Assembly (NCBI RefSeq): GCF_020483305.1
Contig: NZ_JACWAB010000006.1
Span: 62,001-126,000, forward strand
Origin: Arthrobacter sp. UM1
GTDB taxonomy: Bacteria; Actinomycetota; Actinomycetes; Actinomycetales; Micrococcaceae
Length of the DNA: 64,000 nt
Reading direction: 5' to 3'
Below the pieces are notes generated by a model. It saw only the letters and a program-made list of their open reading frames with translations. It was not told the origin of the DNA and did not search any database. Both the position numbers and the translations under genes were made by a program. This document shows, piece after piece, positions 5,406 to 61,060 of the stretch (positions within the stretch are counted from its first letter, which is position 1; each line of letters begins with the position of its first letter).

Positions 5406-7124
5406 ATGAGCACCGACCGCCCGGCAGCAGCGGCCGCGCCCGAGCCCGCAGACCGCGCCAAGTCCGCGCAGCGCCCAGCCCCCGCCCTCTCCCACGACAC
5501 CGCTCTCCCCCACGACACCGCCCTCTCCTACGACGCCGGCCCCACCGAGACGCCGCTCCTCGAGCAGACCATCGGCCAGAACCTCCGAGAAACCGCCGAG
5601 CGCTTCCCGGACCAGGACGCCCTCGTGGACGTCCGCGCGGGCCGCCGCTGGACCTACCGCGAGTTCGTGCGGGACGTGCGCTCGCTTGCCACCGGCCTCG
5701 CCCGAGCCGGAGTCAAGACCGGGGACCGCGTGGGCATCTGGGGACCCAACTCGTGGGAATGGGTGCTCGTCCAGTACGCCACCGCGGAGATCGGCGCGAT
5801 CCTCGTCAACATCAACCCCTCCTACCGGCAGCACGAGCTGGACTACGTCCTCAACCAGTCAGGCATCTCCACCGTCATCAGCAGCGCCAAGTTCAAGACG
5901 AGCGACTACCCCGCGATGCTCGAGGCCGCCAGGCCCAATGCTGCGGCGCTGTCCGCCGTCGTCGTCATGGGGACACCCGAGTGGGACGCGCTGTTCGAGG
6001 AGCCGGACGATGCGCTCCTCGCGGAGATCGGGAGCGCGCTCTCGCCGAACGACCCGATCAACATCCAGTACACCTCCGGCACCACCGGCCGCCCGAAGGG
6101 CGCCACGCTCACCCACCGGAACATCCTCAACAACGGGTTCTTCGACGGGGAGCTGGTGCACTACACGGAGAAGGACCGGATCGTCATCGCGCCGCCGCTG
6201 TACCACTGCTTCGGCATGGTGATCGGCTGCCTCGCGGCGACGAGCCACGGGGCGGCGGTCATCCTGCCCTCGCCCGCGTTCTCCCCGGCGGACACGCTGG
6301 ACGCGGTGCAGCGGGAGAAGGCGACGAGCCTCTACGGGGTGCCGACCATGTTCATCGCCGAGCTCGCCCTCCCCGACTTCGAGTCCTACGACCTCTCCAC
6401 CCTCCGCACCGGCGTCATGGCCGGCTCGCCGTGCCCGATGGAGGTCATGAAGAAGGTCATCGACCGCATGAACATGCGCGAGGTGTCCATCTGCTACGGC
6501 ATGACCGAGACCTCGCCCGTCAGCTTCCAGACGCGCACGGACGATTCGCTCGAGCAGCGCGTCGGCACCGTGGGACGCGTGCACCCGCACGTGGAGGTCA
6601 AGATCACGGACCCCGGCACCGGCGAGACCGTCCCGCGCGGGCAGGCCGGCGAGCTCTGCACGCGCGGCTACTCCGTCATGCGCGGCTACTGGGACGACGA
6701 CGCCAAGACCCGCGAGGTCATCGACGACGAAGGCTGGATGCGCACCGGCGACATCGCCGTCATGGACCAGGACGGGTACGCCCAGATCACGGGGCGCATC
6801 AAGGACATGGTCATCCGCGGCGGTGAGAACGTCTATCCGCGCGAGGTGGAGGAGTTCCTCTACACGCACCCGGACATCGTGGACGCGCAGGTCATCGGCG
6901 TGCCGGACGAGAAGTACGGCGAAGAGCTCATGGCGTGGGTCCGCCTGCGCGACGGCGCCGAGCCGCTCACCGCCGAGACCGTGGCCGCGTTCGCGGACGG
7001 GCAGCTCTCGCGGCACAAGATCCCGCGATACATCCACGTGGTCAACGAGTTCCCGATGACCGTGACCGGCAAGGTGCGGAAGGTCGAGATGCGGGAGCGG
7101 GCCATCGAGATCCTGGGGCTGTAG
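5406..7124 (+). CDS. Fatty-acyl-CoA ligase (AMP-binding)
   Basis: A 572-residue ANL-superfamily ligase that activates a carboxylic acid as acyl-adenylate, then acyl-CoA. The phosphate loop is [16 protein letters not shown] near residue 220, followed by YGMTETSP near 365, the hinge region [21 protein letters not shown] near 465, and the catalytic lysine in VTGKVRK near 555. The first 45 residues are a low-complexity Ala/Pro/His-Asp stretch and the recognisable family begins near [13 protein letters not shown], so a later start cannot be excluded. AGAGGAG precedes the chosen ATG. Medium- or long-chain fatty acid is the likely substrate. A CRP-like site lies upstream. Confidence 0.88.
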
Positions 7125-7183
7125 GCGCCTCGGCCTGCGGCGCCGGGGTTGGGCCCTGCGCGCCGGGTTCTGCGGGCGCCCGC

Positions 7184-7420
7184 CTATCCCCCGGTCAGGA
7201 TCCGGAAGCCGACGGCGAGCACCACCGCGTTGTAGAAGAAGCTCAGCGCCGAGTGGACGAGGCCGTGCCAGCGCATGCGCGTCGTCGTCACCGTGACGTC
7301 CGAGGTGGCGAAGCTGGAGCCGAGCGTCATCGCGAAGTAGAGGAAGTCCGCGCCCGTGGGGGCGGGCCGTGCCGGGGAAGTCGAGGCCGCCCGTCGTCGG
7401 CGTGCCGCTGCCAGCACATC
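7184..7420 (-). pseudogene. Remnant of a DUF1345 membrane protein, truncated and frameshifted
   Basis: The minus strand ends in ADFLYFAMTLGSSFATSDV followed by a hydrophobic helix and FRILTGG, which I recognise as the C-terminal third of the DUF1345 membrane family (about 210-230 residues when intact). The preceding family segment, GGLDFPGTARP, is present but in another frame. Removing one C from the CCCCC run at about 7355-7362 would join them. Upstream of about 7420 no family sequence is visible, and a dispersed repeat lies just beyond. A remnant left by decay is the simplest reading; a sequencing error at the C-run would explain only the frameshift, not the missing N-terminus. Confidence 0.7.
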
Positions 7421-7559
7421 GCCGCCGAGTCGGGCGGGCATCTGCGCGGGACACTCGAGGGCCCGAGAGGCCGAGGGGCCGAGGCTGGCGGGAAAGGCGA
7501 TGCGGCGAGCGACGGCGCACCGGCGCGACACTGGCGGCATCGCGGCCCTTGTCTTCTCT

Positions 7560-7645
7560 GCACCCGTCTCCGCCAACGCACCCGGTTTCTGACGCAGACA
7601 CCCGTTTTCGCTCACGATTTTGAGCAGAAACGGGTGTGAACGGCG
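7560..7645. repeat. Dispersed intergenic repeat, copy 1 (hairpin core)
   Basis: ACACCCGTTT at 7598-7607 pairs with AAACGGGTGT at 7628-7637 around a loop containing CGATTTTGAGCAG. The 80 bases are very similar to the copy at 8560-8645. The gap 7421-7738 otherwise holds nothing I can support as coding. Confidence 0.8.
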
Positions 7646-7738
7646 CAAGGAGCCGGGACAGGGGCGCCTACGGAAGCCCCCCCGGGCATGGCTGCGCGGC
7701 GAACGATGAGAGATGACAGCTGAAACCCGCACAACGTC

Positions 7739-7768
7739 TTGTAGACCAGTCACAGTGTCGTCTATAGT
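7739..7768 (+). promoter_or_regulatory. Promoter of the XRE regulator/membrane protein pair
   Basis: TTGTAG at 7739-7744 and TATAGT at 7763-7768 are separated by 18 bases, 24 bases before the GTG start. GTCT-TGT-AGAC overlaps the -35 element and TGTC...GACA flanks the -10, candidate autoregulatory sites for the XRE protein. Confidence 0.5.
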
Positions 7769-7791
7769 TGACATCACACGAAAGGAGCGCC

Positions 7792-7995
7792 GTGCCGAAG
7801 AACCTCCGCATGAAAGCGGCCCGGGCCGGGCTCGGCCTCTCGCAGTCCGAGCTCGCGGCGAGGGTCGGCGTCACCCGCCAGACGATCAGCGCCGTCGAGT
7901 CCGGGGACTACAACCCGACGATCCGCCTGTGCGTGGCCATCTGCCAGGCTCTGGGCCTCACGCTCAACGACCTCTTCTGGGAGGACCCGTCATGA
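7792..7995 (+). CDS. XRE-family transcriptional regulator
   Basis: 67 residues consisting almost wholly of one Cro/C1-type helix-turn-helix domain (LSQSELAARVGVTRQTISAVESGDYNPT), ending in the NDLFWEDPS tail typical of small YozG-like regulators. Start chosen at GTG 7792 because AAAGGAG lies four bases upstream; an upstream TTG at 7768 falls inside the -10 element. It overlaps the membrane-protein gene by four bases (ATGA). Such XRE/small-membrane-protein pairs are frequent in actinobacteria and firmicutes and are usually autoregulated; the signal is unknown. Confidence 0.85.
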   Translation: MPKNLRMKAARAGLGLSQSELAARVGVTRQTISAVESGDYNPTIRLCVAICQALGLTLNDLFWEDPS

Positions 7996-8474
7996 ACATC
8001 GCCAGCCGCACCCCCGACAACGCTTCCAAGAACTTCGACGAGCGCCAGCTTGCCGCCCGGCGCCGAGTCGGGACGTTCAGCTTCTTCCTCCTCGCGATCC
8101 TCGTCCTGGTCAACGGGATCATCACGGACTACACCGGCCCGTGGGCCTCACCGCTGACCCAGGGGCTGGTCCTGTTCTGGGTCAGCGTGGGATTCTTCAC
8201 CGTCATGTCCATCTGGCATGGCGCCTTCCTCACGGGGAAGGGGGACTCTGCTCCCTACCGAATCCTCGCGGCGGTCACAGCTCTGGTCTCCTTCCTCTCA
8301 CTGGCCAAGAAAGCGGTGATAGGTCCGAGCATCGACCTCGGCGGCCCCGGCCACGAGGGGACAGACCTGACCTTCCTCGTCATGGGCCTGTACTTCACCG
8401 CCGTCGTCGTCGCACAGTTCCTCCGGCAGAGGCGGGATCGGCGCGAGGCGTTCGCGGAGGACGACCTCGACTGA
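7992..8474 (+). CDS. Small four-helix membrane protein, partner of the XRE regulator
   Basis: 160 residues with about four membrane segments: FSFFLLAILVLVNGI near 30-45, LVLFWVSVGFFTVMSIW near 62-80, ILAAVTALVSFLSLA near 92-108, and LTFLVMGLYFTAVVVAQF near 125-142. A charged tail follows (RQRRDRREAFAEDDLD). No enzymatic motif is seen. It is translationally coupled to the XRE gene and the two lie between two copies of a dispersed repeat. The role is unknown; membrane proteins of such pairs are often regulated by or antagonise the XRE partner. Confidence 0.78.
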   Translation: MNIASRTPDNASKNFDERQLAARRRVGTFSFFLLAILVLVNGIITDYTGPWASPLTQGLVLFWVSVGFFTVMSIWHGAFLTGKGDSAPYRILAAVTALVSFLSLAKKAVIGPSIDLGGPGHEGTDLTFLVMGLYFTAVVVAQFLRQRRDRREAFAEDDLD

Positions 8475-8555
8475 CGGTTCGCAAGGGCGCGCAGAGCCCC
8501 GACGGTGCAACCTCCCCCTGTAAATCGTGCGGACCCCTGCGGAGGGTGCCGTCTG

Positions 8556-8770
8556 TTCCACACCCGTTTTCGCCACCGCACCCGGTTTCCGGCGTAAACA
8601 CCCGTTTTCGATCACGATTTTGAGCAGAAACGGGTGTGAACCGCGCCAGGTGCACAGAAACGGGTGCGAACGGCACGAGGCGCACGGAACCGGGTGTGTA
8701 CGGACCTGGACGCACAGAAATGGGTGCGGCCAGGGTCCAGGCGGCGCATGCCGAGCGAAAACGGGTGCAG
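8556..8770. repeat. Dispersed intergenic repeat, copy 2, with 30-bp array
   Basis: The hairpin core ACACCCGTTT (8598-8607) / AAACGGGTGT (8628-8637) is followed by GAAACGGGTG-like units starting at 8627, 8657, 8687 and 8717, exactly 30 bases apart, and a fifth degenerate unit with GGGTG at 8763. The bases between unit heads vary. This fills most of the gap 8475-8826; no gene is seen there. Confidence 0.8.
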
Positions 8771-8826
8771 CTGCGCCCGACTCGCGGCGGCTCGGGCAGG
8801 AGCGCGCGAGAGACAGGCGCCCCGCC

Positions 8827-10218
8827 CTACCGCGTCCGCCCTGCGCGGCGGCCCCGGGTCTCGAGGCCTTCGAAGGCGTAGCCCATTTCGTCGTCGAGCG
8901 CGGTGCGGCTGCGGTTCTTCGGGAGGAAGAAGACGTAGACCACGAGCGAGACCGCAATGCACGCCGTGACGTAGAGGAAGAACTCGGTCCGCATGCCGTG
9001 CTTGCTGAGGTATTCGCCGATGAGCGGGGTGGTGCCGCCGAAGAGCGAGTTGGCGATCGCGTACCCGAGGCCCACGCCGAGAGCGCGGATCTTCGCGGGG
9101 AACAGCTCGGCCTTCACGATCGCGGAGATGGACGTGTAGCCCACGGTGATGACGAGGCCGCCCAGCATGAGCAGGAACGCCGCGAACGGGGAGCGCACGC
9201 CGGCGAGGGTGCCGAGAATCGGCCAGGTGAAGAGCACGCCGCCCACGCCGAAGGCGATGAGCACGGTCTTGCGCCCCACCTTGTCCGAGACGAGGCCGGC
9301 GAGCGGCTGGAGCAGCATGAAGATGAACAGGGCCCAGAAGTTGATGACCGAGGTCTGGGTCTTGGGGATCCCGGAGACGTTGTTCATGTAGCTGAGGATG
9401 TACGTGGTGTACGTGTAGAACGCCACGGTGCCGCCGAGCGTCAGCAGCACGCACACGAGCAGCGGCTTCCAGTGCTGGGTGAAGAGGACCTTGAGGGTGC
9501 CCGCGTTCTGCACGTCCTTGCGGTCCGAGGCCACGGCGATCTGCTCGGTCTCGAGGGACTCCTCCATGCTGCGGCGCAGCCAGAGGACCACGAGCGCGGC
9601 CACGGCGCCGATCCAGAACGGGATGCGCCAGCCCCACTCGCCGAGCTGGTCCTGGGTGAGGACGTTCTGCAGGACGATGAGCGTGAGCAGGGCCAGCACC
9701 TGGCCGCCCACGAGCGTCACGTACTGGAAGCTGGAGAAGAAACCGCGGCGGTTCCTCGTCGCGATCTCGGACATGTAGGTGGCCGAGGTGCCGTACTCGC
9801 CGCCGAGCGAGAAGCCCTGGAGCAGCCGCGAGAAGTAGAGGATGATCATGGCCCAGAGGCCGATCGCGTCCTTGCCCGGCAGGAGCGCCAGGATGAGCGA
9901 GCCGGCGGACATGAGCGTGATGGAGAGCGTCAGCGCGGCCTTGCGCCCGTGCCGGTCCGCGTACCGCCCGAAGAACCACGAGCCCACCGGCCGCATGAGG
10001 AACGTCAGGGCGAAGCCGAGGTAGGCGTCGATCTGGCCCTGGACGGGGTCGTGCTTGTCGAAGAAGTGCGCCGCGAAGTAGGAGCTGAACGCGGCGTAGA
10101 TGTAGAGGTCGTACCACTCGATGAGGTTGCCGGCCGAGCCCTTGAGCGTGTTCGCCACGGCCTGGCGCATCTGCTCGGGGGTGGGCTTCGCGGCCGGTGC
10201 GGTGTCCGTGTGCGCCAT
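8827..10218 (-). CDS. MHS-family MFS transporter (alpha-ketoglutarate permease-like)
   Basis: 463 residues, 12 membrane segments, metabolite:H+ symporter family. Family marks are GNLIEWYDLYIYAAFSSYFA in helix 1, GRYADRHGRKAALT after helix 2, SLGGEYGTSATYMSEIA in helix 4-5 and SDKVGRKTVLIAFG in the central loop. Overall resemblance is to alpha-ketoglutarate/dicarboxylate or shikimate permeases; the exact substrate is not readable. GAAGGAG precedes the ATG. It is divergent from the ABC transporter genes, and its 3' side faces the repeat array. Confidence 0.87.
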   Translation of the reverse strand: MAHTDTAPAAKPTPEQMRQAVANTLKGSAGNLIEWYDLYIYAAFSSYFAAHFFDKHDPVQGQIDAYLGFALTFLMRPVGSWFFGRYADRHGRKAALTLSITLMSAGSLILALLPGKDAIGLWAMIILYFSRLLQGFSLGGEYGTSATYMSEIATRNRRGFFSSFQYVTLVGGQVLALLTLIVLQNVLTQDQLGEWGWRIPFWIGAVAALVVLWLRRSMEESLETEQIAVASDRKDVQNAGTLKVLFTQHWKPLLVCVLLTLGGTVAFYTYTTYILSYMNNVSGIPKTQTSVINFWALFIFMLLQPLAGLVSDKVGRKTVLIAFGVGGVLFTWPILGTLAGVRSPFAAFLLMLGGLVITVGYTSISAIVKAELFPAKIRALGVGLGYAIANSLFGGTTPLIGEYLSKHGMRTEFFLYVTACIAVSLVVYVFFLPKNRSRTALDDEMGYAFEGLETRGRRAGRTR

Positions 10219-17309: not shown

Positions 17310-17490
17310 CACCGCACCCTCTTCCGCTCACCTCCGGCGATCCACACCGCTTTCTGCTCACGCCCCCGCCGGCCCACACCCGCTTCCGCACGCCCCGGCG
17401 ATCCACACCCGTTTCTGCTCAAAAACCCGCTCAGAACCGGGTGTATTCGCCTGAAAGCGGGTGCGAAGGCGAAAACGGGTGTGGCGACGG
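17310..17490. repeat. Dispersed intergenic repeat, copy 3 (inverted orientation)
   Basis: CACACC-headed units at about 17313, 17342, 17374 and 17403 (spacing 29-32) run into the hairpin ACACCCGTTTCTG (17405-17417) / CAGAACCGGGTGT (17432-17444), then CGGGTGCG and CGGGTGTGG units. CTGCTCAAAA matches the core seen at 7610 and 8610 on the other strand. Together with the operators this fills the gap 17084-17576. Confidence 0.75.
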
Positions 17491-60339: not shown

Positions 60340-60570
60340 GCCCTGCCCACTCACACCGGGAAACGCTCACCCCGGCCCGTTCACACCCGGAAACGCCCCC
60401 TCCCCCGTCCGCTCACACGCGCTCACACCCGAAAGCGCTCAGCCCCCGCCCCGTTCACACCCGGAAACGCTCCCTCCCTCCGTTCACACCCGGAATCGAC
60501 GAAAACACCCATAAACGAACGCGATTTTGAGCGGAAAAGGGGTGCGGTGACGGAAACGGGTGTAGGGCGC
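60340..60570. repeat. Dispersed intergenic repeat, copy 4
   Basis: CACAC-headed units start near 60352, 60382, 60414, 60424, 60456 and 60485, mostly 29-32 bases apart, each followed by CGGAAACGC-like sequence. They end in the hairpin-type core AAAACACCC...CGATTTTGAGCGGAAAAGGGGTG. Upstream, 60114-60339, is the hutI leader with nothing else recognisable. Confidence 0.75.
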
Positions 60571-60819: not shown

Positions 60820-61060
60820 GCCGGTTCGCACCCGGAATCGCTCACCCCGCTCGTTCACACCCGGAACCGACGAAAACACCCATAATCGCACATGATTTTG
60901 AGCGGAAAAGGGGTGTCGTGGCGGGAAGGGGTGTGATCGCGGGGCCGAAGCGAGCAGGAACGGGTGCGACGGCGAAAAGGGGTGTGGGCGCGGGCGAGGG
61001 CCCGGGCGAGCATGGGGCAGGCGGGGCGGGTACCTGACCGCGGCGGAAACGGGTGCGGCC
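60820..61060. repeat. Dispersed intergenic repeat, copy 5
   Basis: The core CGACGAAAACACCCATAA...GATTTTGAGCGGAAAAGGGG near 60860-60912 repeats the core of copy 4 almost exactly, followed by degenerate GAANGGGTG units (GGGTG at 60911, 60929, 60962, 60980 and near 61053). With copies 4 and the structured stretch it fills the 1.1-kb hutI-hutU gap. Confidence 0.75.

Follow-up and report, generated by a model that had tools for sequence, protein, structure and literature searches.

A regularly spaced repeat array in Arthrobacter sp. UM1 as one arm of a putative BIME- or REPIN-like interspersed element

Interspersed palindromic repeats and the element of Arthrobacter sp. UM1

BIMEs are mosaics built from REP sequences, in which palindromic heads in alternating orientation are separated by linkers of fixed length; they are intergenic, clustered, and present at many loci. 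The repeat array described here lies in a stretch of 64,000 nucleotides from the genome of Arthrobacter sp. UM1 (hereafter the window), and it belongs to an element that resembles BIMEs in having heads in both orientations, linkers in fixed classes (18, 20, 28, and 29–31), an intergenic location, and many loci with clusters of several units. It differs from BIMEs in that it has in addition successive heads of like direction, spaced 18, 20, and about 30 bp apart, in that it lacks the GTAG tag, and in that it was found in one genome only. To our knowledge, its sequence is unrelated to that of BIMEs.

In the RAYT system, the dispersed unit (REPIN) is an extragenic inverted doublet of short repeats, according to excerpts of PMC3116915. 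The element is likewise an extragenic inverted doublet with a conserved spacing (28 bp in 36 of 42 cases) and at least 46 copies; however, extra same-direction heads form part of its unit, and the pairing of the doublet is weakly kept. A genome-wide search for transposases, made with the Y1 (RAYT) family PF01797 only, gave no match in the UM1 genome (99.2% complete), and the control search matched five of 14 named genomes. The GTAG tag was found in none of 38 copies, and its complement in two of 38, within 16-base end stretches, and a tag farther out would escape this count since the right end is variable. Because the RAYT transposase and the GTAG tag were tested and absent, the element is not classed as a REP or REPIN. 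Untagged REP-like families are noted in M. tuberculosis and D. radiodurans in excerpts of PMC3733652, and the CGTC-tagged or untagged REP-like repeats that these excerpts describe are, like the element, palindromic interspersed repeats without a dedicated transposase; the element differs from them in being larger and multi-headed. The CGTC tag lies near the ends in five of 38 copies (complement in three of 38) and is absent from the consensus.

MITEs are non-autonomous DNA transposons. The element shares with them its dispersed copies and its want of coding capacity. Its outward heads, which stand at both ends, resemble terminal inverted repeats, but the loose end varies in head number; no target-site duplication was read, and no parent transposon was found in the genome-wide search with PF01797. 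CRISPR arrays have longer, identical repeats in one orientation, unique spacers, and Cas genes nearby. This type of array was rejected for the present locus, where the conserved part spans about 10–14 bp, the spacings range from 18 to 33, the orientation flips within a single locus, and no Rfam match was obtained in the window.

Anatomy, copies, and surroundings of the element

The initial annotation had placed the starts of four heads at 8627, 8657, 8687, and 8717 of the window, and these starts, with their spacings of 30, 30, and 30, were confirmed. The heads at 8627 and 8657 are exact copies of GAAACGGGTG, and Tandem Repeats Finder reported a period of 30 with 3.4 copies at 8625–8726. When one mismatch at most was allowed, the window contained 27 instances of the head word RAAACGGGTG, whereas 100 shuffles gave 6.04 on average and never more than 14; in its exact form, the word occurs 61 + 62 times in the whole genome against 1 + 1 with the reversed control. 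Therefore, the array is not a product of chance. It forms one arm of a larger unit, an element of about 80–110 bp. In the middle of this element is a 38-bp imperfect palindrome (core), whose two outward heads start 28 bp from each other; on one side, a rigid arm carries more heads, the first at 20 bp and the next 18 bp beyond it, and on the other side is a loose arm in which heads recur mostly every 29–31 bp and vary in number. The head consensus is about C-G/A-NWWN-CGGGTG, with a conserved part of about 10–14 bp per head. Half of the element, namely three heads on the minus strand (8561, 8579, and 8599) together with the palindrome at 8599–8636, was missing from the initial annotation (Table 1).

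Table 1. Features of the element in the window and junctions compared with the same-genus genome G001
Feature	Position	Strand	Basis or value
Rigid-arm head B3, 18 bp beyond B2; usual left end of the shared unit	8561–8570	-	
Rigid-arm head B2, 20 bp from core head	8579–8588	-	
Core (38 bp), an imperfect palindrome whose two heads face outward	8599–8636	+	core pattern, alignment, profile
Loose-arm head, 30 bp from core head at 8627	8657–8666	+	
Loose-arm head GAACCGGGTG (one mismatch), 30 bp on from 8657	8687–8696	+	
Loose-arm head GAAATGGGTG (one mismatch), 30 bp on from 8687	8717–8726	+	
Last loose-arm head (fifth of the array), 41 bp on from 8717	8758–8767	+	
Second copy: B3 7561, B2 7579, core 7599–7636	7561–7636	+	profile match
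Third locus: core 17406–17443, rigid arm 17454–17481, loose arm 17315–17405	17315–17481	-	
Diverged copy	60473–60547	+	profile match
Diverged copy, orientation as 60473 copy	60848–60922	+	profile match
Junction C13:18k			distance between aligned blocks, own/G001: 336/150
Junction C13:98k			distance between aligned blocks, own/G001: 599/166
Junction C10:81k			distance between aligned blocks, own/G001: 874/44
Junction C15:64k			distance between aligned blocks, own/G001: 815/164

The linkers of 20 bases had been said to differ, which is true of the fourth (20–35% identical to the others), whereas the first three are mutually 60–70% identical. Over the whole array, the mean identity of the linkers is 0.47, compared with 0.29 for random letters of equal composition, and the heads are 80–100% identical, a figure inflated by the way in which heads are found. 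The second copy of the element lies in the same orientation exactly 1000 bp before the copy at 8599, is 88% identical to it over 93 bases, and is situated between codirectional genes; no loose-arm head was found beyond its core. At 7792–8474, between these two copies, there are a small gene of the HTH_3 family and a protein whose match to DUF6773 is below the cut-off. When the loci were compared in pairs, the similarity ended about 40 bp from the core on the left in 709 of 1064 ordered comparisons; on the right, it reached no further than the core edge in 380 and some 30 bp beyond it in 385. Since the right end is bimodal and the BLAST ends are variable, the element has no single right border.

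A profile built from 38 copies matched at least 46 distinct copies (E <= 1.1e-9) at 28 loci of the 2.39-Mb genome, loci being counted after merging of copies within about 1.1 kb. Eight of the 46 matches are outside the training set, and the number is a lower bound because 150 of 826 candidates were scored; the 25 weaker matches listed are mostly the opposite strand of palindromes already counted. The alignments comprise 38 of the 46 copies. With at most three mismatches, the core pattern itself gave 34 copies, against none with the reversed control. The spread is uneven: contig C9 (763 kb, 32% of the genome) holds one of the 28 loci. Since contigs tend to break at repeats, a repeat-poor contig is expected to be long, which does not account for the scarcity on C9 itself. 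Copies lie at or near the ends of five contigs (C3, C11, C14, C15, and C16); the assembly is probably interrupted by the repeats, and the actual number of copies may exceed the count given here. A site confined to the terminus was rejected, as dnaA is at 55 kb on C13 with loci about 37 kb and 43 kb to either side. DNA uptake sequences are short words scattered singly over the whole genome, genes included. Unlike these, the head word was away from element loci at only four of 100 listed places (of 123).

The arrays are intergenic in the stretches scored with gene calls from a codon-score script, and three overlap only a predicted gene start; for one of these, the homology of the called gene begins about 190 bp away. 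Of 28 array stretches, nine are between convergent, 11 between codirectional, and four between divergent genes, and four are at contig ends; these are not identical to the 28 profile loci, as two window loci were split and C9:317k and C15:1 omitted. The gaps of at least 60 bp in the same regions, element gaps included, number 21 convergent, 44 codirectional, and 14 divergent. Nine flanking proteins were scanned; a Pfam match above the cut-off was obtained for six of them, each to a different family. The protein at 8827–10218, which we take to be a putative transporter, has its best named relatives in Arthrobacter, Tersicoccus, and their kin (64–68% identity). Elsewhere, three long proteins of about 1200 residues with similar first 60 residues (L047:4142-7747, L048:2-3643, which runs off the contig start, and L048:4075-7647) have elements in the gaps beside them, and the one that was scanned has an SdrD_B domain; it is possible that the three are surface proteins.

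Occurrence in relatives and arrangement of paired copies

Among the relatives searched, the element was not recovered. The profile matched one of 295 genomes of the family, namely its own (among the best 14 candidates per genome, a less sensitive scan by which only 14 copies were recovered in UM1). The exact core pattern, which fits at most 15 of 34 cores in UM1, gave no match in a genome collection from which this genome may have been left out, or in viral contigs, and no match was obtained in plasmid and phage records. With up to three mismatches, the pattern gave one to four matches in 19 of 58 relatives, a result equal to that of the reversed control and with unrelated middles, and none in the two genomes of the same genus; with up to two mismatches, eight of 296 genomes of the order, besides UM1, have one match each. 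A viral origin was rejected, for the exact core was absent from viral contigs and the only contig found with the tandem-head pattern carries an unrelated coding DGETG repeat. Among the literature matches listed, no title or abstract describes the sequence of the element or such a family in Micrococcaceae.

One of the same-genus genomes, a single contig (G001), keeps the gene order at four loci where the element was detected neither on inspection of the sequences nor with the core pattern (junctions in Table 1). No target-site duplication was read, and these four sites in G001 are too diverged for the junctions to be read. G001 is rearranged in the vicinity of the window array, where it carries a 37-bp tandem repeat in the element's stead (L075:9364-9462); it may have a repeat family of its own. 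On the comparison of these two genomes, gain in Arthrobacter sp. UM1 would be a simpler reading than loss in G001.

At 15 multi-copy loci, all 18 adjacent pairs of copies have the same orientation, and 13 of the 18 are 244–317 bp apart. Three of these loci are plain tandem duplications of the whole unit. At nine others, the paired copies are 75–93% identical, and the DNA between them shows no clear resemblance to either flank (z <= 1.8); two further pairs gave z of 2.0 and 2.4. Either the constancy of the element results from selection or conversion, or new insertions occurred near old copies in one orientation. At L059:4163-5563, a 586-bp unit that includes the element forms a tandem array of three, with 97–99% identity between neighbours, and this triplication is a recent amplification.

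Spacing, head recognition, and the origin of the 30-bp period

Spacings and heads were counted in the window and 22 fetched stretches. Among 177 spacings between adjacent same-direction heads, the common values are 18 (43), 20 (35), 29 (20), 30 (28), and 31 (9), the rest being scattered, so that the 29–31 class makes up 57 of the total. Of 42 divergent pairs, 36 have a spacing of 28 and four a spacing of 29; seven pairs are convergent. These counts bear out that the spacing is non-random in the other copies as well. The statement that other arrays keep 29–32 bases, on the other hand, holds for one arm only, as spacings of 18, 20, and 28 are found elsewhere. The 30-spaced arm is in fact the loosest part of the element (28–33 bp), and the rigid spacings are those of 18, 20, and 28 bp. 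Since 28 of 66 gaps in the range of 28–33 bp are exactly 30, three such gaps in a row are unremarkable, and a second array (L065) likewise has 30, 30, and 30. A coding repeat was rejected, as a reading frame would not be kept across spacings of 29 and 31.

The initial annotation had read the exact 30-bp period as phased protein binding. At 10.5 bp per turn, 18 bp corresponds to 1.7 turns and 30 bp to 2.86 turns, and same-direction sites are not at whole helical turns across copies (18 bp in 43 of 177; loose arm 28–33). For periods of 10, 10.5, and 11, the mean phase of the spacings is -17, -62, and -103 degrees and the Rayleigh R is 0.64, 0.72, and 0.74, a high R being expected from three spacing classes alone. 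The uneven phases are in favour of some phasing and are no proof of it, and the data give no specific support to helical phasing with a 30-bp period. Two parts of that reading are supported, in that the spacing in other copies is far from random and the heads vary as would be expected if double-stranded DNA were read; a special role for a period of exactly 30 bp is not. In 285 GGGTG sites within clusters, the head centre is AA in 193, TT in 39, and AT or TA in four, the last against 67.8 expected under independence among the 236 sites with A or T at both positions. The switch between AA and TT is found in the rigid arm (four and five copies) and in both core heads (13 and two), and therefore more than one event is likely. 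This pattern, part of which shared descent could explain, suggests that duplex DNA is recognised, probably by its A-tract shape, and the heads are probably binding sites of a protein.

Overall, it appears that the array belongs to a non-coding interspersed element, specific to its lineage, which behaves like a BIME or REPIN and was spread by copying, a reading to which we give a probability of about 0.58. By this scheme, the unit would have been copied round the chromosome, probably with the help of an enzyme or other protein that acts in trans and binds the double-stranded heads. Duplication of units of about 30 bp may then have made the loose arm grow and shrink, which would explain its period near 30; the whole element was also duplicated in tandem at the three loci mentioned. 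Since the first three linkers of the array are alike, unit duplication made part of its 30-base periodicity, and the exact period here reflects mainly such duplication together with conservation of the heads and is no proof of helical phasing. Several observations go against the scheme: no mobilising enzyme was found in the search with PF01797, no target-site duplication was read, the constant orientation of adjacent copies and their usual distance of 244–317 bp argue against free transposition, the right border is not a single one, and the fourth linker is near random in its identity to the others. The element may also have been lost in G001. A plain minisatellite, in which a 30-bp unit slips with neither dispersal nor function, could account for the related first linkers and the variable number of loose-arm heads; however, slippage cannot disperse a unit, and this one recurs with its 18-, 20-, and 28-bp spacings at 28 loci, so that such an origin is hardly credible. 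The element might instead be a functional platform for a host DNA-binding protein with a nucleoid, silencing, or regulatory role, its fixed spacings setting the geometry of a multi-protein complex. The rigid spacings kept in dozens of copies, the near absence of AT and TA centres (4 vs 68), the uneven helix phases (R 0.64–0.74), and the nine loci at which paired copies remain alike while the DNA between them shows no clear likeness to the flanks are in keeping with this, but there is no clear preference in gene orientation (9/11/4 vs 21/44/14), the six flanking proteins with a family are of unrelated families, the sister genome G001 manages without the element, and no protein can be named. Such a platform is the most serious alternative and still an unlikely one.

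The palindromic core could also form a functional hairpin, either in RNA or in single-stranded DNA, and serve as a terminator, mRNA stabiliser, or cruciform. Six pieces fold as single-stranded DNA better than their shuffles (z -2.1 to -4.5); the core pairs in 83.8% of cells, compared with 81.9% when shuffled, and has a covariation score of 0.087, compared with 0.062, each value being reached by four of 500 shuffles and lying above all slid versions. Stem pairs 1–4 and 12 never vary, and pairs 5–6 hardly do so. However, kinship alone can push pairing and covariation above shuffles, and the structure tested was derived from the consensus. Pairs 7–11 are unpaired in 9–19 of 34 distinct cores, with double-sided changes in two rows at four of these pairs and in none at one; at pairs 8 and 9, two rows are compensated against 11 unpaired. 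The two most diverged cores reach a z of only -2.1 and -2.2, no terminator-like site was found in 7100–8900, and no Rfam family reached the gathering threshold in the window. The hairpin or terminator reading has weak support at best, and a role of this kind is improbable. A bolder and rather doubtful proposal is a lineage-specific nucleoprotein system of about 46 sites with several heads each, many of them in pairs of like orientation at a distance of about 270 bp. A dedicated protein would read an A-tract on either strand beside CGGGTG and bridge the pairs, and this protein might itself be responsible for dispersing the element.

The element of the preferred, copying scheme would add to an actinobacterial lineage an interspersed mosaic repeat without a known mobiliser and with an unusually regular multi-head anatomy. 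Since G001 lacks it and synteny is kept at four loci, it is possible to trace how such elements are gained, grow, and decay, and the nearly all-or-none switching between AA and TT offers a concrete hint as to how the heads are recognised.
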